A DNA stretch of 63,316 bases from Bacteroidales bacterium (GTDB taxonomy: Bacteria > Bacteroidota > Bacteroidia > Bacteroidales > UBA932): contig JAFUGJ010000063.1 of assembly GCA_017469425.1 (NCBI GenBank), forward strand, positions 1 through 63,316, read 5' to 3'. Numbering within the stretch: the stretch's first letter is position 1; the number at the start of each line of letters is the position of its first letter. The position numbers and the translations under genes were made by a program. The notes beneath the pieces are model-generated. The model had not been told where the DNA came from, did no database searches, and was given only the letters and a program-made list of their open reading frames with translations. This document shows positions 16,407-42,358 of this stretch, piece by piece.

Positions 16407-16415
16407 TTACTTTTG

Positions 16416-16775: not shown

Positions 16776-16820
16776 AATTTTTAAATCTTTTTAGTACTTT
16801 TGTGAGCTAAACCATTAAAC

Positions 16821-17414
16821 ATGAACGCCGAAACTGTAGCCGCCCGCATACGCAATGGACAGAGGGAAGCCTTCGATGAGCTTTTCTCCGCGCAATGGCC
16901 TTCGCTGGTGTCTTATGCCAGCATGATGCTGGGCAGCCGCGCGGACGGGCAGGATGTGGTGCAGGCCGTGTTCCTCAATCTCTGGAAGAACCGCGGAAAC
17001 CTGCAGGACGACACCCCGATGGACGCATATCTTATGAGGGCCGTGTATAACCGCAGCCTTAATATAATACGCTCGGGCAAGGTGCGCCGCACGCACGACT
17101 CGGTTTGGTCCGCCCGCATCCGCGAAGAACTTTCGGTATGCTACGACCCCGACCGCAATGATGTCATGCGCCGCATCTTCGGAGCGGAAGCCAGGCAGGC
17201 TATTCAGGACGCAATCGAGACTCTGCCCGAAAGGTGTCGGGAAATCTTCCGCATGCGTTACGAGGATGGCCGTTCGGCGTCCGAGGTGGCCGGAATTCTC
17301 GGCATCAGCGTGTCCACGGTTAACAACCAGGTCTTCAAGGCACTGGGGCTGCTGCGCAAGGACCTCGGCTTTCTTAAGGTGATGGTGCTGTTTTTTGTCA
17401 TCCTGTTCAAATAA
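16821..17414 (+). CDS. ECF-type RNA polymerase sigma factor
   Basis: A 197-residue sigma-70 family factor with regions 2 and 4 only. Region 2 is about residues 10-80 (FDELFSAQWPSLVSYASMML, DGQDVVQAVFLNLWKNR). Region 4 is about 130-190, with helix-turn-helix SASEVAGILGISVSTVNNQV. It stands directly upstream of a FecR anti-sigma factor and an STN-bearing SusC. In Bacteroidota this trio forms a trans-envelope relay that switches on its own SusCD locus when substrate binds. A TACTTTTG box at 16795-16802 could be its -7 element, but no matching -33 element is seen. The hydrophobic C-terminal tail (VMVLFFVILFK) is unusual. Confidence 0.93.
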   Translation: MNAETVAARIRNGQREAFDELFSAQWPSLVSYASMMLGSRADGQDVVQAVFLNLWKNRGNLQDDTPMDAYLMRAVYNRSLNIIRSGKVRRTHDSVWSARIREELSVCYDPDRNDVMRRIFGAEARQAIQDAIETLPERCREIFRMRYEDGRSASEVAGILGISVSTVNNQVFKALGLLRKDLGFLKVMVLFFVILFK

Positions 17415-17481
17415 TTTTTCATTTTCAAATAGGCAGTAAACTGCCGGAAGGTGTCTATTCTGTGTTATTTATACAAGCAGA

Positions 17482-18396
17482 ATGGACGACAATCTCCTGA
17501 TTGCCTATATCGAAGGCAAAACATCGGCCTCTGAAGATGAGAGAATCCTGAACTGGATACTCGCCGACGAGGCCAACCGCGATTATCTTGCAGAGCTCAA
17601 TGCCATATGGCATGCATGCGCTGCTCCCGCCGCACATAAGGTTGCCGCGCCCCGGCGCAGGCTGTCCGGAAAGTGGATTGCCCGCATCAGCATGGCGGCA
17701 GCCATTGCCGTGGGCGTGGTGTTTTCAGTATTCTACTTCTCCCGACCGGAAAAGGAGCCAGAATGCTATGTCTGGTTCAACTCCAATCCCTCTGTCATGA
17801 GCATCACCCTGCCTGACGGAAGTTCGGTTTGGCTGGACCGGCATACCTCGCTGAGCTACTGCGAAGGCGGAGATAAAGGCGTGCGGAGCGTTATCATGCA
17901 GGGAGAGGCTTTCTTCGATGTGGCAAAAGACCCCTGCCGGCCTTTTGTGGTTGAGACATCCGGGCTGAAGGTAAAGGTGTACGGCACGCGTTTCAATGTG
18001 CGCTCCCTCCCTTCCGAGTCCTTCTCCGAAGTCGCGCTTGTGGAGGGGTCCGTTTCGCTTGCCGACAAGGACGAGCGCAACATGATATTCTTGACCCCCG
18101 GGCAGAAGGCGCACTATGTTGCAGCCGACGACTATCTGCAGGTATCGGAAGTGCCGGTTGACAATATCCTGCTCGTCCATTACGGGATAGAGAGCCTGCA
18201 GAACCAGACTCTCTCACAGATACTTGCACATATCGGAGAGAGTTACGGCGTGAGCCTGTCCTGCGACAAAGATTCGATGGAGGAACGCTTCACTGTCAAT
18301 TATCCGAAGGACATTCCTTTGGAGGATGTGCTCTGGACGGTTGAGGCAATCTCCGGCAGCAAGATAAGTATCACTGGCAAAACAGGCGAGAAGTGA
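17482..18396 (+). CDS. FecR-family anti-sigma factor
   Basis: A 304-residue inner-membrane protein expected to hold the neighbouring sigma factor inactive and release it on a signal from the outer-membrane receptor. The N-terminal ~65 residues are cytoplasmic and sigma-binding. One membrane helix follows (ISMAAAIAVGVVFSVFYFS, about residues 72-90). The periplasmic FecR domain has LPDGSSVWLDRHTSLSY and GEAFFDVAKDPCRPFVV. The C-terminal DUF4974-like domain (LSQILAHIGESYGVSLSC) is expected to contact the STN domain of SusC. Its TGA stop overlaps the SusC ATG by one base, so the two are translationally linked. Confidence 0.93.
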   Translation: MDDNLLIAYIEGKTSASEDERILNWILADEANRDYLAELNAIWHACAAPAAHKVAAPRRRLSGKWIARISMAAAIAVGVVFSVFYFSRPEKEPECYVWFNSNPSVMSITLPDGSSVWLDRHTSLSYCEGGDKGVRSVIMQGEAFFDVAKDPCRPFVVETSGLKVKVYGTRFNVRSLPSESFSEVALVEGSVSLADKDERNMIFLTPGQKAHYVAADDYLQVSEVPVDNILLVHYGIESLQNQTLSQILAHIGESYGVSLSCDKDSMEERFTVNYPKDIPLEDVLWTVEAISGSKISITGKTGEK

Positions 18397-21300
18397 TGAG
18401 GACGATTCTGAAACATTTACTGACGGCCGCCATTGCAGCTTTCGTTGCCGTCAACGCTCATGCAGCGAAGTACACCGTAAACATCTCCTGCACCGACAGG
18501 ACGGTTGCGGAACTCGTCTCAATGCTCACCGACCAGACAGGACAGTTGTTCTCCTACAGTTCGGCGGTGGGCGAAAAGCGCGTCTCGCGCGTACGCGTGA
18601 TAAAGAGTAATGTAGAAATGGAGGAAATCCTGAAGGCCGTTTTCGGCGGCAGTGGGATAGACTGGAAGGTTAACGGCAGCATGGTGGTGCTTGTGCCATC
18701 GGCCGGGAAAGCCGGGGCGGAGAGGGCGGAAGCCACCCATGAAGAACTTGTGCCTGCAATCCCGGAGGTCCGGCCTGAACAGGAACTCATAGAGAAAATT
18801 GACGGCAAGGTAGTGGTGAGCGGTGTGGTGCGCGAAGCCGACGGAACCCCCGTGATCGGTGCCGGAGTGAGAGCCATGTCGAGCGGTGCGGGAGTCGTGA
18901 CCGACCTTGAAGGCCGGTATACCATCGAGGTGAATCAGGGGGAAACCCTTTTGTTCGATGCCCTCGGATACGGACATGTGTCGGTGGATGTGGGAAATCG
19001 CCGTTCGGTGGATGTGGTGATGAAAAGCGATGAGCTCGTGCTCGATGCTTCCGTGGTGGTAGGGTACGGAGTGCAGCGGAAAGAAAGCGTGGTGGGAGCC
19101 GTCGTGCAGATCGACAACGATGCGATTGTAGGCGCCGGTCAGTCGAATGTTACCCAGGCCATCGCAGGAAAGCTCTCCGGGGTGCTCACCATGCAGAATT
19201 CCGGCATGCCGGGTTCGGACAACGCCACCATCCTCGTCCGGGGCGTTTCGAGTTGGAACGGCAGCGCTCCCCTGGTTATGGTGGACGGTGTTGAAAGGGA
19301 ATTCAACGACCTGGACCCCAATGAGATAGCATCGCTCTCCGTGCTCAAGGATGCTTCGGCCACGGCAGTGTTCGGGGCCAAGGGGGCAAACGGGGTGATT
19401 CTGGTAACCACCAGGCAGGGAGCGAAGGGCAAGCCACGGATGAAGGTTTCGCTGTCGCAAAGCTACAACTTCCCCACCGGAATCCCCAACCATGTGAGTG
19501 CTTATGAGACTGCGCAGGCATTCAATGTGGCGCTAAAGAACAACGGACAGTTCTCCGCCCTGTATTCGGATGCCGACCTGGAGCAGTACAGGCACCCTTC
19601 GTCCGCCCTGAACGCCCTTCGCTATCCCGATGTGGACTGGTACAAGATGCTGATGCGGAAATGCTCTCCCGAAACCACCGCCAACCTGAACTTCAGCGGC
19701 GGCACCGACAGGGTCAAGTACTTCTTCTCGCTGGGTTACAAGACCGAAGGCTCCATCTTCAAGGAATTCAAGGACGGCGCAAAGTACTCCTACGACAGGA
19801 TAAACTATCGTTCGAACCTTGATTTCGACATCACGAAATCCACGATTCTGTCGTTCCGCGTGGGAGGGTCTCTCGGAATACAGCAGAGCCCGTCAAGCCC
19901 TATCTCGGCAATGTATTCGACATCCACCATCCTCTTCCCCGCATATTTCCCTGCGTGGGTGCTGGAGGAAATCCCGGATCCGGATTACCCCGATGCCAAC
20001 GCCCTCCGGAGGACGAACTCCTACTTCTACGGCTCCTATTATGGGAATCCCTACGGAAACCTTTCCCTCGCCACATATAACCAGTACACCGATTCCAAAC
20101 TTTTCACCGACCTGCTGCTGGACCAGAAACTCGACAAGCTCATCCCGGGGCTTTCGCTTAAGGGGAAATTCTCCTTCAGCACCTATATGCGCAGGCTCTC
20201 GGAGTCGGTATCCAACTCCCTTTCGAGCTTTGCCCTTGACTGGGCTGCCGTGGATGCGGGCACGGGCAACCCCTGGGTTCCCAGCCAGAGCACTACCATA
20301 GTGCTGGAGGATCCGCCGTATTCGGCGTCGCAGGGAAATGTCACGACCTACAATTATACCCTCTACTGGGAAGGGTCGCTCAACTACAACCAGTCCTGGA
20401 ACAACCATCATGTGACGGCCCTCGCCCTTTTCCAGCAGAAGGAATATGTGTCGAGGGTGGCCTTCCCCTACCGCAATGAGGGCTTAGTGGGAAGGGTGAC
20501 ATACGACTACCATCACAAGTACCTCTTCGAAGGGAACCTTGGTTACACCGGAAGCGAGCAGTTCGCCCCGTCCAACAGGTTCGGTTTCTTCCCTTCGGTG
20601 GCCGTGGGCTATGTTGTGTCGAACGAGACATTCTGGAAGAAAGCCTTCCCCTGGTGGAACAAATTCAAGCTGCGCTATTCCGACGGTCTGGTGGGAAGCG
20701 ACAAGACGGATTCCCGCTGGCTCTACTTCAGCTCGTTCAACAGCACATCCACAGGCTATATCTACGAATCTGAATCCGCCAACGACAATGCCCGATGGGA
20801 GACGGCCCGCAAACGGGATATAGGCATAGAGATGGCCTGGCTCAAGAACCGGCTCAGCCTTGAAGTGGACCTGTTCGACGAGCACCGCAGCGGCATGCTG
20901 GTCACCCCTATGATGACCCTGCTTGTGGGAGCGAGCTCGAAGGAAGTGAACCGCGGGGCCCTGAAGAAGCACGGTTTTGAGGCGGAACTGCACTGGAAAG
21001 ACAAACTTCCCGGCGGGTTCGAGTATCATCTGGATGCCATGTATTCGTTCAATGAAAACCGCATCACCAACTATGAGGATGCCCCTTATACACCAGAATA
21101 CCAGAAGGTCGCGGGCAAGCCCCATGCCGGGCAGTCCTATGGCGAAACGCTCGTGGACGGGGGATATTTCACATCCGTGGATGACATCCATAACTACATA
21201 GGATATACCTCGAGCTGGGACCTGATTCCCGTGGGAGCATACAAATACCTTGACTACAAGGCCGATGGACGCATCGATACCAACGACATGCACGCCGTGC

Positions 21301-21836
21301 TCGGCAGCCGTTATCCTTCCACGCTGGTGTCGTTCGGGGGCGGTTTTACCTGGAAGCGCTTCGACTTCAGCTTCCTCTTCTACGGCAACCTCGGGAAGTG
21401 GGTGAACTACAACGGCGCTTACGAAATAGACTTCACGCACAATGAGATACGCCTGAGCGAGTCGCAGCGCAATTACTGGTCGCCGGACAATCCCGGGGCG
21501 ACGCATGCCACCATGGTATATCGCGGTGCCTCCGGCCATCCCATGTACACTTGGGCGGGCATTACCAGTGCCGAGTCGGCGGACATGGGCCTCGTAGGGC
21601 ATACCTGGAGGCGCTCGGACTATGTCAACCTGCGTGACCTGCGCCTGGGCTATACTTTCGACTCCCGCAAGCTCAATGCTGCGGTGGGAATCAAGAGCCT
21701 GAATGTGTACATCAATGTGAACAACCTGTTTTACTTCACCACGCTGCTCGAGGGCAATCCGGAAGCATCTTCCTTCGTGAGCGGAAGCTATCCGCTCATG
21801 CGCACCCTCCAGTTAGGATTTAAACTCGGAATATAA
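18396..21836 (+). CDS. SusC/RagA-type TonB-dependent receptor with STN signalling domain
   Basis: An 1146-residue outer-membrane importer for oligosaccharides, working with the SusD lipoprotein and TonB-ExbBD. I take the ATG at 18396; a GTG three bases earlier is also in frame. Signal peptide residues 1-24 (ends NAHA); STN domain about 25-100; carboxypeptidase-regulatory-like domain about 138-215 (VSGVVREADGTPVIGAGVRA); plug domain about 220-340 with LVMVDGVEREFNDLDPNEI and VFGAKGANGVILVTTR; beta-barrel to the C-terminus. The STN domain with upstream FecR and sigma factor implies it also senses substrate. It overlaps susD by one base. Confidence 0.97.
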   Translation: MRTILKHLLTAAIAAFVAVNAHAAKYTVNISCTDRTVAELVSMLTDQTGQLFSYSSAVGEKRVSRVRVIKSNVEMEEILKAVFGGSGIDWKVNGSMVVLVPSAGKAGAERAEATHEELVPAIPEVRPEQELIEKIDGKVVVSGVVREADGTPVIGAGVRAMSSGAGVVTDLEGRYTIEVNQGETLLFDALGYGHVSVDVGNRRSVDVVMKSDELVLDASVVVGYGVQRKESVVGAVVQIDNDAIVGAGQSNVTQAIAGKLSGVLTMQNSGMPGSDNATILVRGVSSWNGSAPLVMVDGVEREFNDLDPNEIASLSVLKDASATAVFGAKGANGVILVTTRQGAKGKPRMKVSLSQSYNFPTGIPNHVSAYETAQAFNVALKNNGQFSALYSDADLEQYRHPSSALNALRYPDVDWYKMLMRKCSPETTANLNFSGGTDRVKYFFSLGYKTEGSIFKEFKDGAKYSYDRINYRSNLDFDITKSTILSFRVGGSLGIQQSPSSPISAMYSTSTILFPAYFPAWVLEEIPDPDYPDANALRRTNSYFYGSYYGNPYGNLSLATYNQYTDSKLFTDLLLDQKLDKLIPGLSLKGKFSFSTYMRRLSESVSNSLSSFALDWAAVDAGTGNPWVPSQSTTIVLEDPPYSASQGNVTTYNYTLYWEGSLNYNQSWNNHHVTALALFQQKEYVSRVAFPYRNEGLVGRVTYDYHHKYLFEGNLGYTGSEQFAPSNRFGFFPSVAVGYVVSNETFWKKAFPWWNKFKLRYSDGLVGSDKTDSRWLYFSSFNSTSTGYIYESESANDNARWETARKRDIGIEMAWLKNRLSLEVDLFDEHRSGMLVTPMMTLLVGASSKEVNRGALKKHGFEAELHWKDKLPGGFEYHLDAMYSFNENRITNYEDAPYTPEYQKVAGKPHAGQSYGETLVDGGYFTSVDDIHNYIGYTSSWDLIPVGAYKYLDYKADGRIDTNDMHAVLGSRYPSTLVSFGGGFTWKRFDFSFLFYGNLGKWVNYNGAYEIDFTHNEIRLSESQRNYWSPDNPGATHATMVYRGASGHPMYTWAGITSAESADMGLVGHTWRRSDYVNLRDLRLGYTFDSRKLNAAVGIKSLNVYINVNNLFYFTTLLEGNPEASSFVSGSYPLMRTLQLGFKLGI

Positions 21837-23686
21837 TGAAAAGGATATCGGCTTTTCTTTTTGGCATATTGCTCCTCTCATCCTGCAGCTGGCTGGATGT
21901 ATCGCCCGACCTTGGCATGACAGAGGAAGAGGTGTTCAGCAATTACACCAATTTCAAGAATTACCTGTACAGCGCCTATCATGGGGGCACGCAGCTTGAT
22001 TTCGATGTGGCCGGAAACATCTTCCGTGCGTATTGCCCCATCGGAATCAACAGCACCACCTACCGTTTCACCATGAACACCATCACGGACATCTCCGATT
22101 CGGGAAGACCCCTGCGTTCGCATGTGATGAAGGGAGGCTTCTGCGGCGACGACAATGCCCGCACCTTCGTGAACGGCAGGGCTCCCATCTTTGCCACGAT
22201 GTGGATAGTGAACAGGATTGCGAACCGCTGCATCGAAAATATAGACAGGCTCCAGGGAGTGTCGGATCCGGACAAGTATGACCTGCTGGCCCAGGCGTAT
22301 TTCCTGCGTGCGCTTGCTCACTTCACGCTCTGCAACTATTTCGGCGGAATGCCCTATGTGGACCATGCCCTTTCGGGGGATGACAGCTTCGACCTGCCGC
22401 GGCTGAGCTCCCGCGAAACATACGACAGAGTCGCCCAGGATGCCTGGACGGCCTATGAATATTTCGACCGTGCCGGACTCGTGCGCAGGGACCCCATGCC
22501 CGGGGAAGCGGGCAATCTGCAGCATTCGGAGATAAACCATGCCGCAGGCATTGCCGCACTTGCCCTGCGCAGCCGTGCGCTCCTTTACGCCGCCAGCCCC
22601 CTGAGCAACCCGGAAGGGGATGTTTCTGCCTGGGCAGCCGCCGCCGAAGCAGCATCGTTCACCCTCGACACGGCGCTGGAGTACGGTTATTACCTGCTGC
22701 CTTTTGACGAGTGGGAGAACAACTGGAAGTATGTAGATTACACCAATGAACAGCTCTGGGCATGGACGGCAGGAGCCATTGCGGACAATAACGATTACAT
22801 AGTGAGCTGCAATGCATATCCCATGACAAACAACAAGAATGGCGGAGCGGTATGCCCGACCCAGAATGCCGTTGACATGTATGAAACAGCCTGGGGCGAT
22901 CCGCTCAATACCGAAGCAGACCGTGAGGCAGCGGCGGCCCTCGGCCATTACAACGAGCAGCGCCCCTATGTGAACAGGGATCCCCGTTTTTATAAACTGG
23001 TGGTCTATGACGGAGCATCTTCCGAAGGAGCCCCTGTCATCAATATCTACTACAATCCCGACACCGGCACCTGGCCCACCACTGCCCTGAGCGGAAAATC
23101 CCGCTATTTCGGCTACACCTGGGGCTCGCAGACCGGAATGGGTGTCTCCAACACAGGATATTACAGCCGCAAATGGTGGGACGGCAAATACACTTCCACC
23201 AAGTTCGCGGTAACCGATCCCCTTTTCCGCCTTGCGGAAATCTACCTCAATTATGCCGAAGCGGCGAACGAGGCATGGGGCCCGAACGGGGGAGTCGCAG
23301 GGCAGATAAGCGCCGTGGATGCGGTGAATGTGGTGCGCGACCGCGCCCTGATGCCTCCCGTCCTCGCCAGATATGCGGGCGACAAGGACCTTCTGAGGGA
23401 GCGTATCCAAAACGAAAGGGCTATCGAATTCATGGATGAAGGAGTGCATTACTTCCTCGATATCCGCCGGTGGAAAGTAGCCCCCGAGCGCATGCGCAAG
23501 ACTCTCTACGGGATGTATATCGAGTCCTGCCCGGTCAGCGCGGAGCATCCTGCGGGGCGCAATTATGTGCGCACCCCCCTGTCTTCCGACAGGCAGTCTA
23601 CATGGAAGGACGAGATGTATTACTTCTTCCTTCCTGCCGAGGAGGCCAACAAATTCAGCGTCTTTGAAAACAACCCCACATGGTAG
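21836..23686 (+). CDS. SusD/RagB-family glycan-binding lipoprotein (first pair)
   Basis: A 616-residue surface lipoprotein that caps the SusC channel and binds glycan. The signal ends LLLSSCSW, a clear lipobox. The N-terminal TPR-like part includes LLAQAYFLRALAHFTLCNYFGGMPYVD. The C-terminal SusD region carries LFRLAEIYLNYAEAANEAWG and RIQNERAIEFMDEGVHYFLDIRRWK, both typical. The start overlaps the SusC stop (TAATG). A partner for the SusC at 18396 is assured by order; the ligand is unknown. Confidence 0.96.
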   Translation: MKRISAFLFGILLLSSCSWLDVSPDLGMTEEEVFSNYTNFKNYLYSAYHGGTQLDFDVAGNIFRAYCPIGINSTTYRFTMNTITDISDSGRPLRSHVMKGGFCGDDNARTFVNGRAPIFATMWIVNRIANRCIENIDRLQGVSDPDKYDLLAQAYFLRALAHFTLCNYFGGMPYVDHALSGDDSFDLPRLSSRETYDRVAQDAWTAYEYFDRAGLVRRDPMPGEAGNLQHSEINHAAGIAALALRSRALLYAASPLSNPEGDVSAWAAAAEAASFTLDTALEYGYYLLPFDEWENNWKYVDYTNEQLWAWTAGAIADNNDYIVSCNAYPMTNNKNGGAVCPTQNAVDMYETAWGDPLNTEADREAAAALGHYNEQRPYVNRDPRFYKLVVYDGASSEGAPVINIYYNPDTGTWPTTALSGKSRYFGYTWGSQTGMGVSNTGYYSRKWWDGKYTSTKFAVTDPLFRLAEIYLNYAEAANEAWGPNGGVAGQISAVDAVNVVRDRALMPPVLARYAGDKDLLRERIQNERAIEFMDEGVHYFLDIRRWKVAPERMRKTLYGMYIESCPVSAEHPAGRNYVRTPLSSDRQSTWKDEMYYFFLPAEEANKFSVFENNPTW

Positions 23687-23694
23687 AATCACAG

Positions 23695-26388
23695 ATGAGA
23701 CATAATTATATCATACTTTTCCTGCTCTTGTTCCCGTTGTGCGCCGCCGCCCAGGCCCCGGCACCGGAGGATTCCCTCTACACCGGCAGTTCCAAGTCGG
23801 CGGGGCGGGAAGTGCTGGGCATCTATCCCACGCTCGACCTGATGAACTCCTTTACCGGGGTGCTTCCGGGTCTGTGGGTGACAGAAAATGCAGGTGCCAC
23901 AGGGGTGAGGTACCACACTGAGAATTGCTCGCTCTCCATCAGGGGCTTTTCCGGCGTAAAGTACATCGTGGACGGCATAGTGCTCTCCGAACCCGAACAG
24001 TTCCAGCTCGATCCGGAAGACATCGAATCGGTAACCCTCGTGTCGGGCATCGTGGACAAGGCGCGCTTCGGTCCGGAAGCGTCGCGCGGAGCGGTTTATA
24101 TCCGGACGGTGAGAGGCCTGCCCAAGGGGCGGGAAATCCGATTCACCGTGCAGAAGGGCGTCGATATGGTTGACAGGATGCCCGGATGGCTCGGGGCTTC
24201 GGATTATGCGGTGCTGAACAACCAGGCTCGCGAGGCTGCATCCTTCCCCGTGCTTTTTGACGACGAGGCCCTTCGCACCGTGGCAAAGAACGACATTTTC
24301 GATTATTATTATCCGGCGGTTAACTGGCAGTCGCTGATGCTGAAGCGGACTCGCGACTTCACCAAGGCGGGATTCCTCGTGAGGGGCGGCGGCAGCAATG
24401 TCTCTTACAGTACCCACATCGGCTGGGCACACCATGGCGATATTTATGCCATGGGCCCCGTGTCGGATTTCAACCGTTTCAATGCCGACATGTCGATTGA
24501 TGTGAGGCTGAACCACCGCATCCGGGCGGAAGTCAATTTCATCGCCCTGTACACCATGCGGCGCAGCCCCCTGGTGGGAGGCACCACCAACAATACCTAC
24601 GAATTTCCTTCGGTGCTGAGCCTTCTGCACAGCGTTCCGTCCACTGCCTATCCCCTCTATGTCGACAGGGATTCCGACACGGGAGTTTATAACTGGACCG
24701 TTTCTGCACGCTATCCCGACAATCCCTACGCCAATCTCTACGACAGCGGATTTTATACCGAAACAGGCCGCACCGGGCTGACGGATGCAGTTCTTCACTA
24801 CGATTTGGGAGGACTGCTTCCCGGGCTGCGGAGCGAAACCCGTTTCGGGCTCAATGTCTATTACTCAACCCGTATCGGAATGGAAAAAGACTATGTGGGC
24901 GTGATTTATGATCCGCAGACCGGTATCAAAGCCCCCACTTCGCACATGGGAACATCCGCCACCTCCAAGTCTCAGTTCCTTGCCGGGTATCTGCAGGGGC
25001 TGCAGTTCAACCAGCGTTTCAGTTACGACAAGTCCTGGGGGCGCAATGCAGTGACGGCTTCCCTTGGCTACAACCGTTCGCACCTGGCTTATTCCATTGA
25101 AGGAGGATACCATCAGCAGCAGAATGTGGTGATGGACCTTGCATACTCACGCGGAGGTCGTTTCAAGGTGGAGAGCGTGCTGAATTACGCCGGAACATCT
25201 GCCCGAAAGCGCGGACACCGCTATGAACTTTTCCCTACCCTGGGAGTTTCATGGCGCCCTCTGGACTGGGTCAAACTCCGCACCCAGGGAGGTATCCTGG
25301 GGTATGAGCCTTACGGCGGTCAGTACTACTGGCAGAGCCGTCTCACCAAGGGCAGTGCCTATACCTTCGGCCCTTACTCCTCGGGACAGTGGTTTGGAAC
25401 GGGCTCATCCATCAGTGTCTATTCCACCACGGTCTCGCGTTATGCAAACGAGGATCTGGGATGGGAAAAGAACAAGGAGTTCGAAATCGGAGCCGACTTT
25501 ACGCCGGTCCGCAACCTTAGTTTGGGGATAACATACTATCATGTGCTGCAGGACGGCATTGTGGTTGACATATCGTCGGTGCAGCCTTACTTCTACGGAC
25601 CGGGAGCCCTTTACGACAACTATAACGCCAATGTTTACGATGGAGTGGAACTGAATGCGGAATGGTCCGGGAAGCTCGGACAGGTGCAGTTGGGCGCCAG
25701 TGCGTTTGCTACCGTTGGTACTGCCCGTTACCGCAAGGTTAATGAGAGTTATTCCGATAAATGGCAGAACCGGGAAGGCAAGAGGATAGGAAGCATCTGG
25801 GGCCTTGAGTGCATCGGCAAATTCGCTTCGGATGAAGAGATAGCCGCCGCTCCCTCCCAGAACTTCGACGCGACGCTTTATCCCGGCGACCTCCGTTATC
25901 TCGATTATGATGAAAGCGGGGAGATTGACAGCCACGATATTCATGTGATAGGAAACAGCTCCCCCCTGCTTCGTTATGCGGTCAACCTCAACCTTGCATG
26001 GAAGCGGTTCGATTTCACCATCGTGGGCACCGGCAAAGCCTTCTTCGATTCAGTACTGAACAATGCATGGTTCTGGAACGGATGGGGAGACGGCAACTAT
26101 TCCACCTTCGTGCGCGACAATCTGGGAGGGGCCTATCCCCGGCTGTCCTACCTCAAGTCGGAGAACAATTTCCGTGTTTCCGATTTCTGGATCAGGAGGG
26201 GAGACTTCTTCAAGATACAGAGCGTTGAGGCGGGAGTGCGTTTCGGGAAGGTGCGTTTCTGCATTCGCGGGGCCAACCTGCTGACCATCTCCGGTATAAA
26301 GGATGTGGATCCTGAATCCCTTTCGTCCGGTGTAAGTGATTATCCTCTGTTCCGTACCGTCACCGGCGGCCTGACCCTTTCATTCTGA
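23695..26388 (+). CDS. Second SusC-like TonB-dependent receptor, short form without STN or CarboxypepD domain
   Basis: An 897-residue outer-membrane receptor. I chose the ATG at 23695, which gives a clean signal peptide (MRHNYIILFLLLFPLCAAAQA); an in-frame ATG at 23680 overlaps the susD stop. After the signal comes a short linker and directly the plug domain (IRGFSGVKYIVDGIVLSEPEQ, VTLVSGIVDKARFGPEASRG), then the barrel. The STN and carboxypeptidase-like domains of the first SusC are absent, so this one cannot signal through FecR. It is about 250 residues shorter than the first SusC. It is followed by its own SusD, forming a second import pair in the same operon. Confidence 0.93.
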   Translation: MRHNYIILFLLLFPLCAAAQAPAPEDSLYTGSSKSAGREVLGIYPTLDLMNSFTGVLPGLWVTENAGATGVRYHTENCSLSIRGFSGVKYIVDGIVLSEPEQFQLDPEDIESVTLVSGIVDKARFGPEASRGAVYIRTVRGLPKGREIRFTVQKGVDMVDRMPGWLGASDYAVLNNQAREAASFPVLFDDEALRTVAKNDIFDYYYPAVNWQSLMLKRTRDFTKAGFLVRGGGSNVSYSTHIGWAHHGDIYAMGPVSDFNRFNADMSIDVRLNHRIRAEVNFIALYTMRRSPLVGGTTNNTYEFPSVLSLLHSVPSTAYPLYVDRDSDTGVYNWTVSARYPDNPYANLYDSGFYTETGRTGLTDAVLHYDLGGLLPGLRSETRFGLNVYYSTRIGMEKDYVGVIYDPQTGIKAPTSHMGTSATSKSQFLAGYLQGLQFNQRFSYDKSWGRNAVTASLGYNRSHLAYSIEGGYHQQQNVVMDLAYSRGGRFKVESVLNYAGTSARKRGHRYELFPTLGVSWRPLDWVKLRTQGGILGYEPYGGQYYWQSRLTKGSAYTFGPYSSGQWFGTGSSISVYSTTVSRYANEDLGWEKNKEFEIGADFTPVRNLSLGITYYHVLQDGIVVDISSVQPYFYGPGALYDNYNANVYDGVELNAEWSGKLGQVQLGASAFATVGTARYRKVNESYSDKWQNREGKRIGSIWGLECIGKFASDEEIAAAPSQNFDATLYPGDLRYLDYDESGEIDSHDIHVIGNSSPLLRYAVNLNLAWKRFDFTIVGTGKAFFDSVLNNAWFWNGWGDGNYSTFVRDNLGGAYPRLSYLKSENNFRVSDFWIRRGDFFKIQSVEAGVRFGKVRFCIRGANLLTISGIKDVDPESLSSGVSDYPLFRTVTGGLTLSF

Positions 26389-26398
26389 TATGCAAGTT

Positions 26399-28174: not shown

Positions 28175-28183
28175 GACAATGCC

Positions 28184-29167
28184 ATGAAAAAGACAATCGC
28201 AATAATCTCCTTGTGCTTCGCCCTCACGGCCTGCTATGAGCCATATGTGACCGATTATGAATACTCGGCCGTCTCGATAGCATATCAATACGACCTGCGC
28301 ACCTTGGTGGTGGGAGAGGGCATGAGCTTCGATTTCGGGGTCATGCTCTCCGGCGTAATCGACAATACCGTGGACCGCACCGTGCAGTTCGAGGTGGACA
28401 ATTCGCTGGTGGAAGGGGCATACCCGATAATGATGGGCACATCTTCTGAAGGCAGCGTCAGCCAATCATATGTAACCGAGGCCGTGCGTGCCGCAGGAAT
28501 CTCATCCCTGTATCCCGTTCCGGAGAACCTGTATTCCATTGAGCCGTCGGGCACTATGGTGATAAAGCAGGGGCGCCACACCGCAACGGCCACTTTCAAG
28601 GCAGACTCCGCCGCGATGCTTGCCGATGCCAATGTGAAGCCTTCTCCGTACTATGCGTTTGCGTGGCGCGTGACTGAGGCCGATGCCGATCAGATATTGG
28701 AGGACAAGAGCTTCGGCGTAATAGCCCTGCGCATCGAGAACCGCTTCTTCGGCAGCTGGTACCATGGAGGGCACACCGTCGTGCGCAAGGACATCAGCTC
28801 CGAGATAGTAAGCGAGGAGTGGTACAGCGGCGCCGTGCCCCAGCCGGATACGAGGATATATACCCTCACCAGTACTGGGCCTTTCTCCGTCAGGACCAAC
28901 AGGTTCGCCAACTCCAATGGCATACTCAACCTGGCATTCGACGGCGACAAGATAACTGTCAGCAGCCCCACGAAAACGATAGAACCGCTCGGGGAAAGCA
29001 GTTTCAACGGTGCCCGCCTCCTGCAGGACCGTAAACTCTTTCTCAATTACAAATACTCCAACGGTGACGGTACCACCACCTATGTACACGACACGCTCAG
29101 TTTCCGTAACCGCCTGCGCGACGGTGTGAACGAGTGGCAGGACCCTGACCCCGAACATTATAAATGA
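28184..29167 (+). CDS. DUF1735/BT_3987-like surface lipoprotein
   Basis: A 327-residue lipoprotein (signal ends ALTACYEP) placed right after the second SusD, where surface glycan-binding proteins usually lie. Residues ~25-160 look like the N-terminal DUF1735/BT_3987 domain (VGEGMSFDFGVMLSGVIDN; GRHTATATFKADSAAML). The C-terminal part resembles DUF4361-type domains (RFFGSWYHGGHTVVRKD; SYKYSNG-like end). Family assignment is by pattern, not search. The likely role is glycan capture at the cell surface. Its stop overlaps the next start (ATGA). Confidence 0.75.
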   Translation: MKKTIAIISLCFALTACYEPYVTDYEYSAVSIAYQYDLRTLVVGEGMSFDFGVMLSGVIDNTVDRTVQFEVDNSLVEGAYPIMMGTSSEGSVSQSYVTEAVRAAGISSLYPVPENLYSIEPSGTMVIKQGRHTATATFKADSAAMLADANVKPSPYYAFAWRVTEADADQILEDKSFGVIALRIENRFFGSWYHGGHTVVRKDISSEIVSEEWYSGAVPQPDTRIYTLTSTGPFSVRTNRFANSNGILNLAFDGDKITVSSPTKTIEPLGESSFNGARLLQDRKLFLNYKYSNGDGTTTYVHDTLSFRNRLRDGVNEWQDPDPEHYK

Positions 29168-31038: not shown

Positions 31039-31054
31039 CATTAATACTATTAGT

Positions 31055-33637
31055 ATGAAGACAAAAGTTTTTCTGAGCTTTGCGCTTGCACTCGCAGTAG
31101 GAGCGTTCGCAGTGTCCTGCGGATCCTATGACGATTCTGCGCTGGAAGGACGCGTGAAAGCTCTTGAGGACAAGTATGCTGCGCTTGAAGCCAAGTGCCA
31201 GTTGCTTAACGACAATGTCGAAGCCATCCGTACCGCCGTTTCCAAAATAGGGGAGAGCAGGTATGTGCAGGATGTGATATTCGCCGACGGACAGTACACT
31301 ATCCTCTTTACCGATGGTGACAAAATCGTCATCAAGGACGGAGAAAAGGGGGATAAAGGCGATTCCGGTTCCGCTCCCGTGGTGGGCGTAAGGAAAGACA
31401 CCGACGACATGTTCTACTGGACCGTAAACGGGGAATGGCTGCTCGATGAATCAGGCAAGAAAGTGCCGGTTGATGCAGGGCAGGCCATAGCTCCCAAATT
31501 CAAGGTGGTTGACGGCTGGTGGTATGTGTCCGTGTACGGAGATGAGGACGGCTACGAGAAAATCGAAGGGTCACAGACAGGAGACCTTATCAAAGTGTCG
31601 CAGACCGATGATGCCGTCTATCTTACCATCGGCACGGATGTAATTACCCTTCCCAAGGCCGCAGGCACCGGATTCAAGATCGTGCTTGAGAAGTACGGCA
31701 GCCTGAGCATCCTCGCAGGAGGCACCCTCGAAGTCAATTACAACATCGTAAAGGCCGATGAGAGCACCGTGGTCGTCACTGAATGCTCCGGATATGAGGC
31801 CGAGGTGCAGCCTTCCGGCACTGACAAGGGAAAGGTCGTCGTGAAGGCCCCTGCAACCCTCCCTGCATCCGGCTATGTCATAGTCAAAGCTGTGAAGAAC
31901 TCTTCTTCGGAGATGTCGGCGCAGATCATGACATTCGAAGAAGGCGTGCTGACCCTGCTTACCGATGCGGTGAGCGTTTCTGCCGAAGGAGGCGAAGTGG
32001 AATTCAAGCTCCGCTCCAATACCAGCTGGACCGTTAATATCCCCGAAGCCGACAGGTCCTGGATTACCGCGTGGAATACCAAAGCGGTCATCGAAAGTAC
32101 TGTGGTTCTTACCGTTGCTCCCAACAAGGGCGCTGCCAGGAGCTCTGCCATCACCATCTCCGATACGGGCGGTTCTTCTCTCTCCCGCACGCTTGTGGTG
32201 AATCAGGAGGAATCCAATGTCAAGCAGGTAAGCATTGCTGCCGCCGTCAACACAAAAAAGGTGTTCTGGTCCGACGCAACCATTACCTGGACTGATGTAG
32301 ATGGTGTTTCCAGCTATGACATGCTTTTGGACGGAGTAAAGGTCGCGAGTGTTGATGCAGGCGTGCAGACATATATGTTCACCGGCCTGTCCGCGGGCAA
32401 GGACTATGTGCTGAATGTGGCCGTGAGCACCGCTGACCTGGAAGGCAAGAGCGAAGATCTTAATATCACGACCGCAACCATCACCAAGAATACCGACAAT
32501 GTAGGACCTACCCATTTGAGTTTTGCCCTGCAGGATGTTACCGGTGGCGGCAGTACTCCCGGAAACCGTGCCTGCCAGTTCCAGCTCTCAACCACTCCTG
32601 ATACGGGAGGGCTCGTCTATGACATCAACGGCTTCGACGGAAGCCTGGCGCTGGGAAGCACTCCCTATACCACATCTTCGTGGCTCGGAAAGCTGAACAA
32701 AAAGGCGGTAGGCATTCCTCTTAATGTTTCGTTCGGCCAGCTGAATCCCGGTACGACCTATTATTTCAGGGCAAGGACTTCCGCAGGCTACACCATGTTC
32801 GCTCCTTTCTCTGATGCCGATGTTACCGTGAAGGCCACCAACGGCGAGTCAGAGTGGTCCGAGTGGATTGCCGCGACCACCGAGCCTGCACATGTTGCTG
32901 CATCCAACGAGGTGATATACGGAGGATTCGATGCCTTGAGCTTCAATGCAGACTTCCTGAACGAGTCCTGCGGCATCTATCCTTATGTGCCCACACGCAA
33001 ACTGAACGGAACATATGCCACGCTTGAGGATGAAGAGCCTGTCCGTGCCCTGTTTACCTGGCCATGGACCGGAGAGTGGCGCGTCAGTAATTTCTCGGGC
33101 CCTGTGAAAGTGTATGGCTGGAACATCGCCGACAAGGCTTCGTACATTGACGGCAGTGCCGCGATGAACGGATACGAGAACCTTGTATTCAACGATGCGG
33201 CCGGGGATATGAAGGGCTGGTTCGTTTCGCCGGACTTCTGCCCTGCCATGGGAACGATTATGAATCGTACCACCGTTGCTGCGGGCGGCCACTATGTGGC
33301 GACTCCGGCCCTGAATTCGGCCCTGCTGTCCTCCACCCTGAAGGACTGCACGCTTACATTCAAGGCATGCCGCATGAGCACGGGCACCCCGAGCAAGGAA
33401 GGAGATATCGTTGTCGTTGAAGTATGCCGCGACGGCAGCGTCCTGGATGTGACTTCGGTAAGCCTCCCCCGCGACATCTTCCTTCCCGAAACTGTCAATG
33501 ACAATAACAATAATGTGGATTACAAGTTCACCGATTTCAGCGTTGACCTTCAACTCAAGACCGGCGACTCCGTAATCATCAAGAGCGGGGCCAACACCCG
33601 TTTCGCCATCGATGAAATCAAAATTATCGTAAAGTAA
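31055..33637 (+). CDS. Large multidomain surface lipoprotein (DUF4988-like, BACON, Fn3-like; shared C-terminal half)
   Basis: An 860-residue lipoprotein with no catalytic motif that I recognise. I take the ATG at 31055 (lipobox AVSCGS). Residues ~24-62 form a coiled coil. A DUF4988-like segment (VQDVIFADGQYTILFTDGD, then GEKGDKGDSG) follows. A BACON-like domain is about residues 300-390 (LTDAVSVSAEGGEVEFKLRS). Residues 392-860 begin with a fibronectin type III-like domain and continue into a long beta-rich region; this half is about 70 per cent identical by eye to residues 291-761 of the protein at 33813. It is likely an exposed glycan-binding protein held on a stalk. Confidence 0.75.
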   Translation: MKTKVFLSFALALAVGAFAVSCGSYDDSALEGRVKALEDKYAALEAKCQLLNDNVEAIRTAVSKIGESRYVQDVIFADGQYTILFTDGDKIVIKDGEKGDKGDSGSAPVVGVRKDTDDMFYWTVNGEWLLDESGKKVPVDAGQAIAPKFKVVDGWWYVSVYGDEDGYEKIEGSQTGDLIKVSQTDDAVYLTIGTDVITLPKAAGTGFKIVLEKYGSLSILAGGTLEVNYNIVKADESTVVVTECSGYEAEVQPSGTDKGKVVVKAPATLPASGYVIVKAVKNSSSEMSAQIMTFEEGVLTLLTDAVSVSAEGGEVEFKLRSNTSWTVNIPEADRSWITAWNTKAVIESTVVLTVAPNKGAARSSAITISDTGGSSLSRTLVVNQEESNVKQVSIAAAVNTKKVFWSDATITWTDVDGVSSYDMLLDGVKVASVDAGVQTYMFTGLSAGKDYVLNVAVSTADLEGKSEDLNITTATITKNTDNVGPTHLSFALQDVTGGGSTPGNRACQFQLSTTPDTGGLVYDINGFDGSLALGSTPYTTSSWLGKLNKKAVGIPLNVSFGQLNPGTTYYFRARTSAGYTMFAPFSDADVTVKATNGESEWSEWIAATTEPAHVAASNEVIYGGFDALSFNADFLNESCGIYPYVPTRKLNGTYATLEDEEPVRALFTWPWTGEWRVSNFSGPVKVYGWNIADKASYIDGSAAMNGYENLVFNDAAGDMKGWFVSPDFCPAMGTIMNRTTVAAGGHYVATPALNSALLSSTLKDCTLTFKACRMSTGTPSKEGDIVVVEVCRDGSVLDVTSVSLPRDIFLPETVNDNNNNVDYKFTDFSVDLQLKTGDSVIIKSGANTRFAIDEIKIIVK
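32228..33637 (+). repeat. First copy of duplicated ~470-residue C-terminal module
   Basis: Encodes residues 392-860 of the 31055 gene. It matches 34683-36098 throughout, with identical stretches such as AASNEVIYGGFDALSFN and WPWTG. The upstream halves of the two genes are unrelated. Confidence 0.9.
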
Positions 33638-33638
33638 T

Positions 33639-33800
33639 ATGAGTCAGATTGAAAAGCAATTGCGCAAAGGGGAGTACTCCTCCCCTGAGTGCGGCCTGCT
33701 CGGGGCATCCCTGTGCAAGCCTGTTCTTACCGGGTCCGATTACGGAGATCCCGGTCACGCCGGCGCCGATCCGGACATTATGGATATTATTGACTTGTAA
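33639..33800 (+). CDS. Small ORF, 53 residues, acidic C-terminus
   Basis: An intact small ORF lying between the two paralogous lipoprotein genes. It starts one base after the upstream stop and ends 12 bases before the downstream start. It reads MSQIEKQLRKGEYSSPECGL at the N-terminus, has two cysteines (18 and 26), and ends in a Gly/Asp-rich stretch, DPDIMDIIDL. There is no signal peptide or membrane helix. The pattern of a short polar head and an acidic tail recalls small unannotated proteins that often sit beside Bacteroidales surface lipoprotein genes, but I do not recognise a named family. Coding status is inferred from its fit into the operon. Confidence 0.5.
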   Translation: MSQIEKQLRKGEYSSPECGLLGASLCKPVLTGSDYGDPGHAGADPDIMDIIDL

Positions 33801-33812
33801 CCACCGGACAAT

Positions 33813-36098
33813 ATGAGACAGACAATCAAATTCGTGGTGCTTGCCGCAGCAGCTGCAGCAGCATCCCTCTCCTGCACAAAGGAAATCACTCCCGCTGCAG
33901 AGTCCGGCCTGATTGAGGTTACCATCGTGGCCGGTGTCGGCACCAAAACCGCCATCCAGGACGGAACTGACAAGACCATGGTCTGGAAAGACGGCGATGC
34001 CATCGGTGTGAGCGACGGAACCGCCAATGTCAAATTCGATGAAACCGATGTCACCGGGGTTTCGGCAAGCGCCACCTTCTCCGGCACCGTTCCCGCTGCA
34101 GGACAGTATTATGCATACTATCCTTACAGCGCTGCGGGTGCATCCGGGATAAGCATCCCTGCCGACCAGACGGTAAGCTCGGTCTATTCCTTCGACCCTG
34201 CTGCCGACCTGCTCGTTTCCAAGCCCTTCACGGTGAGCGGAACAAGCGTAACCGTAAATGACCTCGAATTCAAGCGCCTGGGTGCTTTCATCAAGGTTAT
34301 CGCCCTTGACGGCACCACCGGGAGCGTCCTTTCCGGAAAGACATTCAGCAGCATGAGCATCACTGCCGCAAGCGACCTTGTGGGTACGGTGGCGATTGAC
34401 CTCGGTGCACAGGCTTTGGGAAGCGTGAGCGAGGGGAGCAAAACCGTTACCGCAAACCTCCCGGCCGACAGCTATTCCGTAGGGTCGGAAGGCGGAGTTT
34501 TCTTCGGAATCCTTCCCCAGAGCTTTGCTTCGGGTGCTACCCTTGAAATCAAGGCTGTAACGAGCGGAGTGCCTCTTGCAAAGACGGTTACCCTTCCGGA
34601 TGCAGTAGAACTCAAGGCCGGGCGTATTCTTCCCCTGAGGGTGACATTTACCGACGCCGACATCGACATCGAAATAAAGAATGTCGCCATCACCGCTGCC
34701 GTCAATTCCAAGAAGGTGTTCTGGTCTGATGCGACCGTCACCTGGACCGATGTGGAAGGAGTCACTTCCTACAACATGCTTCTGGACGGTGTGAAGGTGG
34801 GAACCGTGGATGCCGGCGTTCAGACCTATACATTCACCGGACTTTCCTGCGGTACGGATTATGTCCTGAATGTGGAAGCCGGAACTCCCGGTTATGAAGG
34901 AAAGAGCGATAATATCAACATTACCACGGCAACCGTCACCAAGAATACCGACAATGTCGGCCCCACCCATGTGAGCTTTGCCATTCAGGATGTGACAGGA
35001 GGCGGCACAACCGCAAACAAGCGTGCCTGCGCCTTCCAGCTGTCCACCACGCAGGATGAGACCGGCCTGGTTTATGACATATATAACTTCGACGGCACTC
35101 TTACGGACAACAGCACGACTCCTTACTCCACTTCATCATGGCTTGGCAAGACAAGCAATAAGGCCGTAGGAATCCCGCTTAACATTTCGTTGGGTAAACT
35201 GAATCCCGCAACCACTTATTATTTCCGCGTAAAGACCGTGGCAAGTTACACGCTTTACGCTCCGGTAAGTGCCAAAAACCAGACCGTAACTGCCACCAAC
35301 GGCGGGTCCGAGTGGTCGGAATGGATTGCAGTCACCACCGAACCGGCCCATGTCGCCGCCTCCAATGAAGTGATTTACGGCGGATTCGACGCGCTGAGTT
35401 TCAACGGTGACTTCCTGAATGAAGCGTGCGGAACCTTCCCGTATGTTTCTGAAACCCAGAAAATGTACGGCACTTACGGTGATACTTCCGCCGAAGAGTC
35501 GGTGCGTTCGATTGTGAGCTGGCCCTGGACCGGAGCATGGCGTGTCACGAACTTCTCCGGACCAATCAAGGTATTCGGATGGAACATTGCCGACAGGGCA
35601 GACTATGTGGACGGGAACGCTACCGTTAATAGCTATGAGAACCTTGTGTTCAACGATGCAGCCGGTGACATGAAGGGATGGTTCGTCTCGTCGGACTTCT
35701 GCCCTGCCATGGGAACGATCATGAACCGTACCACCATTGCTGCAGGCGGTCACTATGTGGCAACTCCCGCCCTGACTTCTCCGCTTCTGACTTCTTCCCT
35801 CAAAGACTGTACCCTCTCGTTCAAGGCATGCCGCCTTACTACTGGCAAGCCAAGCGGAGAAGGGAATACGGTGGTGATACAGATTTGCCGCGACGGCAGT
35901 TTTGTTGATGTCGAGACCAAAACGCTTCCGAGCGACATTTTCCTTCCTGCAAAAGTCGATGACAAAAACAACAATGTCGATTACAAGTTCACCGATTTCA
36001 GCGCAGACCTTCAGCTCAAGAGCGGAGATTCCGTCATGATCAAGAGCGGAGCCAACACCCGTTTTGTAATCGATGAAATCAAGATTGTGGTAAAGTAG
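33813..36098 (+). CDS. Fimbrillin-like surface lipoprotein sharing its C-terminal half with the 31055 protein
   Basis: A 761-residue lipoprotein (signal ends ASLSCTKE). Residues ~25-280 have fimbrillin-family features: GTKTAIQDGTDKTMVWKDGD, YAYYPYSAAGASG, VNDLEFKRLGAFIKVIA, GGVFFGILPQ. Residues 291-761 are an Fn3-like domain followed by a long beta-rich region nearly collinear with the 31055 protein. The two proteins may present the same C-terminal binding module on different anchoring bases. No enzyme motif is seen. Confidence 0.78.
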   Translation: MRQTIKFVVLAAAAAAASLSCTKEITPAAESGLIEVTIVAGVGTKTAIQDGTDKTMVWKDGDAIGVSDGTANVKFDETDVTGVSASATFSGTVPAAGQYYAYYPYSAAGASGISIPADQTVSSVYSFDPAADLLVSKPFTVSGTSVTVNDLEFKRLGAFIKVIALDGTTGSVLSGKTFSSMSITAASDLVGTVAIDLGAQALGSVSEGSKTVTANLPADSYSVGSEGGVFFGILPQSFASGATLEIKAVTSGVPLAKTVTLPDAVELKAGRILPLRVTFTDADIDIEIKNVAITAAVNSKKVFWSDATVTWTDVEGVTSYNMLLDGVKVGTVDAGVQTYTFTGLSCGTDYVLNVEAGTPGYEGKSDNINITTATVTKNTDNVGPTHVSFAIQDVTGGGTTANKRACAFQLSTTQDETGLVYDIYNFDGTLTDNSTTPYSTSSWLGKTSNKAVGIPLNISLGKLNPATTYYFRVKTVASYTLYAPVSAKNQTVTATNGGSEWSEWIAVTTEPAHVAASNEVIYGGFDALSFNGDFLNEACGTFPYVSETQKMYGTYGDTSAEESVRSIVSWPWTGAWRVTNFSGPIKVFGWNIADRADYVDGNATVNSYENLVFNDAAGDMKGWFVSSDFCPAMGTIMNRTTIAAGGHYVATPALTSPLLTSSLKDCTLSFKACRLTTGKPSGEGNTVVIQICRDGSFVDVETKTLPSDIFLPAKVDDKNNNVDYKFTDFSADLQLKSGDSVMIKSGANTRFVIDEIKIVVK
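34683..36098 (+). repeat. Second copy of duplicated ~470-residue C-terminal module
   Basis: Encodes residues 291-761 of the 33813 gene and pairs with 32228-33637. Differences are scattered and frame-preserving, and mostly conservative (Ile/Val, Ser/Thr), which points to an old duplication under selection rather than recent copying. Confidence 0.9.
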
Positions 36099-36101
36099 GG
36101 C

Positions 36102-37073: not shown

Positions 37074-37074
37074 G

Positions 37075-39003: not shown

Positions 39004-39017
39004 CTTTAAATTGATAA

Positions 39018-40880: not shown

Positions 40881-40886
40881 TACTTT

Positions 40887-42353
40887 ATGAATAGAAGAGA
40901 ATTCTTTTCAACCGCTGGCACTATTGCTGCCGCAGGCGCAGTGTCTTCGCTCCCTTTTGCATGTTCGGACGCCCGCAGCTTTCACTCTCGGGCGAAAAAT
41001 GCTTATAAAACAACCCTGCTGGTGGTGGGAGGCGGTCCTTCGGGGGTATGCGCTGCCGTGAGTGCTGCCAGGCTCGGAATCGAAACGATGCTGATTGACA
41101 ATGGCAACTGCCTCGGAGGAATGGGAACCAAGGGCCTTGTGGGGCCTTTCATGACCTGTTACGACGCCAGCGGCACCGAGATGATCATCCGTGGTCTGTT
41201 CGAAGAGGTGGTGGAGAGGCTGATTGCAAAAGGCGGTGCAATCCATCCGTCCGAAATCCATCAGGGAACCGAATTTACGGCGTGGATCAGCGAAGGCCAC
41301 GAACACTGCACTCCTTTTGATGCGGAGTTGCTGAAGGTGGTTTACGACGAGATGTGCGCCGAGGCAGGAGTTAAGGTGCTGTACCATGCTTCTTTCCTGG
41401 AGCCGGTGATGAAAGGCAGCAGGATTGTGGGCGCCGTGCTGCTTACTCCTTCGGGTGTCGAGGCAGTGGAAGCCGGAATGGTAATAGATGCGACCGGAGA
41501 CGGAACGGTGGCTTATCGGGCCGGGGCGCCCGCGGTTTTCGGGGATCCCGACTCCGGAAGGGTGCAGCCCGCTTCTCTCTTTTTCAGGATGAACAATATA
41601 GACACCGATGCGCTGATTGCCGAGGTGGTGCCGCATCTGCCGGAGTTCCGGCGTGTGAACGGGGTCAGCTACCGATGCCTGCATTGGAGGGTTGCCGAAG
41701 CCGAGGCCGCAGGGGAGTGGGATCTTGCGCGCAAGTCGGTGAATATCTGGCGCAGCGTAGAAAAAGACCAGTGGGTTGCCAACTGCACCCGCATCCATAA
41801 TGTGGACGCTACCAATGCGCAGAGCCTGACCGATGCCGAGATTGAAGGACGCAGGCAGGTGCAGGAACTGATGCACTTCTTCCATAAGTATGTTCCCGGC
41901 TGTGAGAAAGCTACCCTGATGGGCACCGGCTCAACCATGGGAATACGGGAATCCCGCCATATCCATGGTGACTTTGTGCTGCCGGTGCAGGACCTTATCG
42001 ACGGTGTTATCCCTGAGGATACCATTTTGCTTTCGGCAAATTCCATTGATGTGCACGGGGCCATGGGCGGACCTGCAGGGGGATTGTATATGCCTATTAA
42101 AAAAGATATGTACGGTGTTCCTTACCGTTGCCTGCTTCCTGCAAATGTAAGCGGACTGCTGCTCACCGGACGCTGCATTTCGGCGGAATCCGCCGCTGCC
42201 GGTGCGATAAGGGTGATGCCTCCGGCAATGGCTCTGGGTCAGGCTGCGGGTACTGCCGCTGCCCTCTGCCTGCAGCGCGGTTGCAATCCGGATACTCTGG
42301 ATTATGCCGACCTGCGCGCAGCCCTTGTGCGTGCCGGTGCGTTCCTTGGTTGA
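40887..42353 (+). CDS. Tat-exported FAD-dependent oxidoreductase
   Basis: A 488-residue flavoprotein. The N-terminus MNRREFFSTAG is a twin-arginine signal, and LPFACSD further on may be a lipobox, so it is probably folded with FAD in the cytoplasm and then exported. GGGPSG at 48-53 binds the ADP part of FAD. VIDATGDGTVAYRAGAP and a C-terminal LLLTGRCISAESAAAGAIRV segment place it in the PF12831 group, but it is only distantly related to its neighbour. It starts six bases after the preceding gene. No cytochrome or other electron acceptor is encoded nearby. Confidence 0.87.
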   Translation: MNRREFFSTAGTIAAAGAVSSLPFACSDARSFHSRAKNAYKTTLLVVGGGPSGVCAAVSAARLGIETMLIDNGNCLGGMGTKGLVGPFMTCYDASGTEMIIRGLFEEVVERLIAKGGAIHPSEIHQGTEFTAWISEGHEHCTPFDAELLKVVYDEMCAEAGVKVLYHASFLEPVMKGSRIVGAVLLTPSGVEAVEAGMVIDATGDGTVAYRAGAPAVFGDPDSGRVQPASLFFRMNNIDTDALIAEVVPHLPEFRRVNGVSYRCLHWRVAEAEAAGEWDLARKSVNIWRSVEKDQWVANCTRIHNVDATNAQSLTDAEIEGRRQVQELMHFFHKYVPGCEKATLMGTGSTMGIRESRHIHGDFVLPVQDLIDGVIPEDTILLSANSIDVHGAMGGPAGGLYMPIKKDMYGVPYRCLLPANVSGLLLTGRCISAESAAAGAIRVMPPAMALGQAAGTAAALCLQRGCNPDTLDYADLRAALVRAGAFLG

Positions 42354-42358
42354 AGTGC

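Follow-up and report, generated by a model that had tools for sequence, protein, structure and literature searches.

Why should a polysaccharide-utilisation locus (PUL) end in two exported flavoproteins? The question is raised by a 63,316-nucleotide stretch of DNA from a Bacteroidales bacterium (GenBank assembly GCA_017469425.1, contig JAFUGJ010000063.1), which is called the window below. According to the open reading frame (ORF) list, 25.5 kb of it (16821-42353) hold 14 genes, all on the + strand. Among them are a polysaccharide lyase (PL) lipoprotein of the PL35 type (P0003, 29164..31038) and, at the 3′ end, two putative flavin adenine dinucleotide (FAD) enzymes, FAD-A (P0001, 39018..40880) and FAD-B (P0002, 40887..42353). 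An earlier note on this DNA had proposed that the two enzymes take the place of glycosidases and that oxidation is coupled to cleavage by the lyase. The main finding of this study is that FAD-A belongs to a widespread family of PUL flavoenzymes that includes fusions to glycosidases and to a regulator; no assigned function for the family was found in the literature searched.

Both flavoproteins score far over the Pfam cut-off of 27 bits for PF12831 (FAD_oxidored), FAD-A with 222.5 bits (1.6e-65) and FAD-B with 381.5 bits (8.5e-114). FAD-A has a lipoprotein leader and, in addition to the PF12831 domain, a predicted N-terminal beta-sandwich at about residues 23-151 (model pLDDT 90.4). The carbohydrate-binding-like domain that had been claimed for FAD-A was recovered as this predicted fold, but no Pfam family matched the N-terminal domain at E 0.01. 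FAD-B begins with MNRREFF, a leader of the twin-arginine type as read by eye, and the genome encodes TatC (206.8 bits). As claimed before, FAD-B is thus a predicted substrate of the twin-arginine translocation (Tat) pathway. The two enzymes had been described as PF12831 proteins of unrelated appearance. The family assignment holds, while the description as unrelated does not, since they are 26% identical over 478 columns and have the RESR, D-x-H, and RCL motifs in common. The predicted fold of FAD-B was poor (6 sequences, pLDDT 56).

Is FAD-A regularly found in glycan loci? In at least 11 of 17 genomes, the best FAD-A gene has a SusD gene no more than 10 kb away, where about 2.9 such genomes would be expected (P ~1e-5). 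I chose the 17 genomes from 38 having a FAD-A gene; the SusD places counted are a lower bound, so that misses may have been overcounted. The window itself was scored as a miss, its nearer SusD gene being 10.8 kb from FAD-A. The best 80 of 578 FAD-A relatives were then viewed together with flanks of up to 10 kb. These loci contain SusC (27 loci), the glycoside hydrolase (GH) family GH3 (18), a family of 823-residue proteins (15), GH36-like proteins (13), GH20 (7), and PL35 (1). The counts rest on my own picking of the longest ORFs without a gene caller, by which some high-GC loci were misread (L110 for example); the FAD-A ORF was not picked and the centre is wrong in three of the 80 (L126, L163, and L178), and many contigs stop within the flank. 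These results indicate, at the level of gene neighbourhoods, that the FAD-A family is PUL-associated and goes with SusCD as a family.

The fusions of FAD-A give hints about its partners. FAD-A is joined in one frame with GH20 (L131), with a GH36-like domain (L039 and L152), and with a LacI regulator (L061, and L062 as judged by its LacI-like N-terminus). In L131, the 1269-residue FAD-A-GH20 protein (6101-9910) is adjoined by a second FAD-A and by a relative of FAD-B that scores 197.5 bits and starts with a twin-arginine-like leader. A clade of 13 FAD-A sequences (tree support 100) lacks a leader peptide by eye. In four members of this clade, LacI is joined to FAD-A or lies just before it; this was read from Pfam in L061, L064, and L065 and by eye in L062. 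The presence of SSF symporters next to FAD-A was confirmed in L062 and L065. Since a leaderless FAD-A with a symporter fits poorly with a long polymer, this clade favours a small or terminal sugar, and I infer that the FAD-A family may act on such sugars. Concrete candidate substrates are suggested by the GH20 and GH36-like fusions, by the clade with LacI and symporters, and by the PL35 locus of the window.

The 823-residue family is directly upstream of FAD-A in 13 of its 15 loci (for example, L174:7494-9965). The members inspected have no Pfam match at 0.01, and one member searched against the PDB has no match there. A sialic acid or N-acetylgalactosamine role for the whole FAD-A family was considered and rejected, because DHDPS, AGE, and MFS genes each occur near FAD-A in only two of the 80 loci.

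PF12831 flavoproteins recur in glycan loci of Bacteroidota, with no stated job found in the literature searched. Among the open-access search hits shown, which in several searches were a part of the hit list, no title dealt with PF12831 enzymes of PULs. In Maribacter, a gene for a FAD-dependent oxidoreductase is mentioned beside an expressed SusC/D pair, without a stated function (PMC11345257). If FAD-A-type enzymes do process sugars, a part of glycan breakdown in the gut and rumen would be redox chemistry that annotation based on carbohydrate-active enzymes does not count.

What polymer might be the target in the window? The earlier note had recognised a heparinase-like lyase, and this was right and can be narrowed. 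The alignment of P0003 with the PL35 GAGases covers almost the whole protein, and P0003 matches the PDB entries 8khv (2.8e-124), 8khw (1.2e-96), and 9o3q, a PL35 chondroitinase (1.7e-53). In Pfam it is DUF4962, with a Hepar_II_III_C match slightly under the cut-off. Counted along the alignment, N202, Y257, and H412 of P0003 correspond to Asn192, Tyr246, and His401, which are given as the catalytic residues of GAGase II (PMC12088678). The motifs are NNW at 201, EGYGYW at 253, and SHAHLD at 411, the H-x-H-x-D metal site is kept, and the position of the extra His that GAGase III has for alginate is Asn (N201). P0003 is therefore a PL35-type lyase with an intact predicted triad, like GAGase II (8KHV) and GAGase VII (8KHW) in its Asn, Tyr, His, and metal-site residues (PMC12088678, PMC12269599). 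Because of these residues, the locus is likely to target a polymer that contains glucuronate. A second PL35-like gene, 37% identical to P0003, lies in the window at 1098-3737 beyond rpoBC, and a third is on another contig (G000:C94).

Other PL35 loci have a different set of partners. PUL25 of B. caccae has PL35 together with GH88, GH109, and GH154 (PMC12269599), whereas none of these hydrolases was recognised in the window locus and two flavoenzymes are found instead. A P0003 homologue (1e-20) was found in 34 of 150 related genomes, its own included, and the seven best places outside its own genome (L102-L108) were fetched. SusC, a SusD-like protein, and PL35 are common to L102, L103, and L104, as in the window; FecR is present in L103 and L104, and an ECF (extracytoplasmic function) sigma factor in L103. 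The SusD-like protein of L103 is 64% identical to that of L104, which weakly matches a window SusD. L103 also has a natural PL8-GH88 fusion (13944-17147), one half of which matches chondroitinase AC (PL8) and the other GH88 unsaturated glucuronyl hydrolase, and relatives of parts of it are present in L102 and L104. Thus, where the window locus has the flavoenzymes, a second lyase and a hydrolase are found in L103, and no hydrolase was recognised in the window locus by comparison with L103 and PUL25. To this extent, the earlier title, which names flavin oxidoreductases instead of glycosidases, is borne out; it does not extend to the family, as many FAD-A loci hold glycosidases too. The SusC proteins of L102-L104 are the best SusC matches among the loci fetched, but they are only 26-29% identical to that of the window, so these loci are parallel to the window locus and not orthologous. 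A 692-residue protein of L103 gave no match in a PDB search.

My preferred reading, held tentatively and at somewhat less than an even chance, is that the locus is an ECF/FecR-controlled PUL for a D-glucuronate-containing polymer, in which a terminal or released sugar undergoes a flavin-dependent step carried out by FAD-A. The surface PL35 lyase would cut the polymer by beta-elimination, and SusCD would take up the resulting fragments. FAD-A would then act on this sugar in the periplasm, perhaps together with FAD-B. A first guess for the step is dehydrogenation, with electrons passing to a membrane acceptor, which would ready the fragment to be cleaved further or taken up. The FAD-A family may do likewise in many PULs with differing glycosidases, and because of these differing contexts the polymer would be set by the partner enzyme and not by FAD-A. 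Uronate fragments could enter a route through the KduI gene and a gluconate 5-dehydrogenase-type gene located 6-8 kb downstream. A bolder version is that FAD-A represents an unstudied class of glycan-processing flavoenzymes, made of a beta-sandwich and a PF12831 domain and acting on terminal or released sugars beside or fused to exo-glycosidases, which here replaces the uronyl hydrolase after the PL35 lyase. I consider this version possible and rather doubtful; if true, it would be a flavin-dependent branch of polysaccharide utilisation.

Several observations weigh against the preferred reading. Some rows were dropped for the proximity tests: 17 of the 88 for FAD-A (weak ones, or further pieces of a gene already counted), one of the 51 for PL35 (a piece), and three of the 67 for FAD-B (two matched by FAD-A too, one piece). 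Two distinct FAD-A genes, in the window and in G034, have PL35 no farther than 12 kb away, where 0.6 pairs would be expected (P 0.13), and without the window the proximity is at chance level among relatives (P 0.44). FAD-A and PL35 are together in one of the 80 best FAD-A loci, being adjacent in L142. A further case of FAD-A beside PL35 is L065, which has LacI, FAD-A, SSF, and two PL35 matches and stands apart from L142 in the tree. Proximity of FAD-B to PL35 was found only in the window among the loci compared. The FAD-B profile, which also detects FAD-A and matches in 77 of the 80 FAD-A loci, gave no ORF match in the seven best PL35 places. The coupling of lyase and oxidase as a conserved module was therefore rejected as a general claim: FAD-A keeps company with SusCD as a family, and with PL35 no more than by chance outside the window. 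Oxidative degradation is reasonable for FAD-A as a family, though unproven, and it is the lyase partnership that lacks comparative support.

PF12831 is itself unspecific, since each of 14 control genomes has a match that passes its cut-off. PDB sequence searches found no solved close relative of the flavoproteins; in the rows shown, only short Rossmann-type stretches matched. To my knowledge, no reaction, substrate, or acceptor has been described for any close relative of FAD-A. In the nearest FAD-A relative, L109 (62%), GH2, GH28, and a FAD-B relative are nearby, and the SusCD genes are on the opposite strand to FAD-A; in the second nearest, L110 (59%), PPDK and SHMT genes flank it. The KduI and gluconate 5-dehydrogenase-type genes (48157-50030) lie past the operon and outside it. 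KduI scores 412 bits (cut-off 250), and the short-chain dehydrogenase/reductase (SDR) scores 456 bits with the gluconate 5-dehydrogenase model (cut-off 369), while KduD models match the SDR under their cut-offs.

Does FAD-A rather belong with FAD-B? Four FAD-A genes lie within 3 kb of FAD-B, against 0.4 expected (P 0.0006; without the window, P 0.007). The FAD-B matches beside FAD-A in G023, G047, and G048 are only 33-34% identical to P0002 and these genomes are near relatives, so that there is little independent support for the pairing, which is suggestive at best. FAD-B relatives (1e-30) were found in 20 of 150 genomes, its own included. Of the best 14 FAD-B places outside the window, 13 were viewed (G063:C41 was omitted). 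Metallo-beta-lactamase-fold proteins are encoded in six of these 13, in none of the seven PL35-centred loci, in one of the 80 FAD-A loci, and in one of 40 further loci (L039-L078). Relatives of the window lipoprotein P0006 are in six (one of them weak, 65 bits), none, none, and two, respectively. These counts are not independent because the genomes are close kin, and the profiles were built partly from members of the counted loci, the P0006 relatives having first been found with P0006 alone. H-x-H-x-D-H is present in all six metallo-beta-lactamase-like proteins inspected; a lactonase role would be a guess. No such protein was found by Pfam in the window operon.

Other explanations must be considered. 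The flavoprotein genes might be passengers, useful separately, that landed at the 3′ end of the PUL and do not act on the polymer. FAD-B copies 77-80% identical are found in seven genomes of the genus, and in no case is there a PL35 match 12 kb or less away; this fits the passenger idea, as do the proximity tests for both enzymes with PL35. However, the gaps before the two genes are just 14 and 6 bp, there is no internal -7-like box, and FAD-A is strongly tied to SusCD loci in general; I regard passengers as unlikely. About equally unlikely is a redox-neutral reaction, in which FAD-A converts a hydroxyl of the ring into a ketone, elimination or hydrolysis breaks the glycosidic bond, and the hydride is handed back by the flavin, so that FAD-A would replace the GH88-type hydrolase that the locus lacks. 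NAD-dependent glycosidases and 3-keto pathways are the chemical precedent for it. The fusions to exo-glycosidase families (GH20 and GH36-like) are consistent with this, and so is the PL8-GH88 protein of L103, with its partial relatives in L102 and L104, as the window locus lacks these. Yet the recognised glycosidases in many FAD-A loci leave nothing to be replaced there. Moreover, the GH88 profile, which has no match in the window, has one strong match elsewhere in the genome (C30), and no active-site feature speaks for the reaction. In Bacteroides, the oxidative breakdown of glycans by way of 3-keto sugars uses NAD-type oxidoreductases. It is alike as a would-be redox route in a PUL, but a keto product is not evidenced here.

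Electrons could also flow the other way. The flavoenzymes may reduce the 4,5-unsaturated uronyl double bond made by the lyase, or a plant phenolic side group, as an electron sink. In Foldseek, the structures ranked highest for FAD-A are chains of fumarate reductase/flavocytochrome c3, and urocanate reductase comes at rank 33. But the query-normalised TM-scores are just 0.20-0.30 in the rows shown, VIA-align placed only about 170-260 of 620 residues, and Thi4 and dihydrolipoyl dehydrogenases score alike. PL35 is present in one of the 80 best FAD-A loci. The reductase idea seems quite improbable. Membership of FAD-A in the fumarate reductase/flavocytochrome c group is not supported beyond the FAD domain.

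The layout agrees with the earlier description of one strand with mostly short gaps and overlaps. The intergenic distances, from the ECF gene through FAD-B, are 67, -4, -1, -7, 1, 9, -4, 16, 175, 3, 1, 14, and 6 bp, with 31055 chosen as the start of the first large lipoprotein. Eleven of the 13 are 20 bp or less, and four are negative; the larger gaps are those between ECF and FecR (67 bp) and between the two large lipoproteins (175 bp). The PUL parts named before were found as well, all on the + strand. The sensor pair consists of the ECF sigma factor (16821..17414; Sigma70_r4_2 1.9e-16) and a FecR-type anti-sigma factor (17482..18396; FecR 6.3e-16, FecR_C 4.4e-7). Two adjacent SusC/SusD pairs follow. 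SusC (18393..21836; Plug and CarbopepD in Pfam, TIGR04056 769 bits) bears an N-terminal extension that is STN-like by eye, with no STN match in Pfam, and SusD 1 (21836..23686; SusD_RagB 3.3e-39) has a lipoprotein leader by eye. The second SusC-like protein is short (23680..26388; Plug 4.3e-6) and falls under the TIGR04056 cut-off (334 against 368 bits); SusD 2 is at 26390..28174 (SusD_RagB 1.5e-30). Next are a BT_3987-like_N lipoprotein (28184..29167; PF08522 5.7e-8) and P0003, the carbohydrate-active enzyme of the locus.

Two large lipoproteins come after P0003, one with DUF4988 (31055..33637) and one with fn3 (33813..36098) in Pfam. They differ in their N-termini and share a C-terminal module of 474 columns (73.6% identity), and are likely to be a duplication. 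Elsewhere in the fetched loci, the module has only weak matches of about 30% identity (L054 and L106). These lipoproteins may bind glycan. Between them and FAD-A lie the lipoproteins P0006 (36102..37073) and P0007 (37075..39003), neither of which has a Pfam family or a match in PDB sequence searches.

Is the locus a single transcription unit? An element TACTTTTG (16795..16802, + strand) lies 18 bp 5′ of the ECF start and matches TANNTTTG, the Bacteroidota-type -7 pattern. It is the only + strand match from 16795 to 42353. The pattern is no commoner than chance across the entire window (18 occurrences against 19 expected), a two-box promoter pattern was found on the - strand only, and sigma-70-like sites across 28000-42800 are no more than chance. 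The gaps and the -7 box weakly suggest one unit.

The locus sits between a tRNA array and dxs in an incomplete 2.53-Mb assembly of 103 contigs. Upstream are tRNA genes, rplK, rplA, rpoB, and rpoC, and downstream is the convergent dxs. Four - strand tRNA genes (16334-16712) end 108 bp before the ECF gene. The SDR and KduI genes are followed consecutively by DUF4861 and a GH43 plus glucuronoyl-esterase-type protein, forming a uronate-related cluster (48157-53756). Further downstream, a tandem pair of fimbrillin-like (Mfa_like_1) proteins of 1035 and 980 residues is encoded at 55896-61949.

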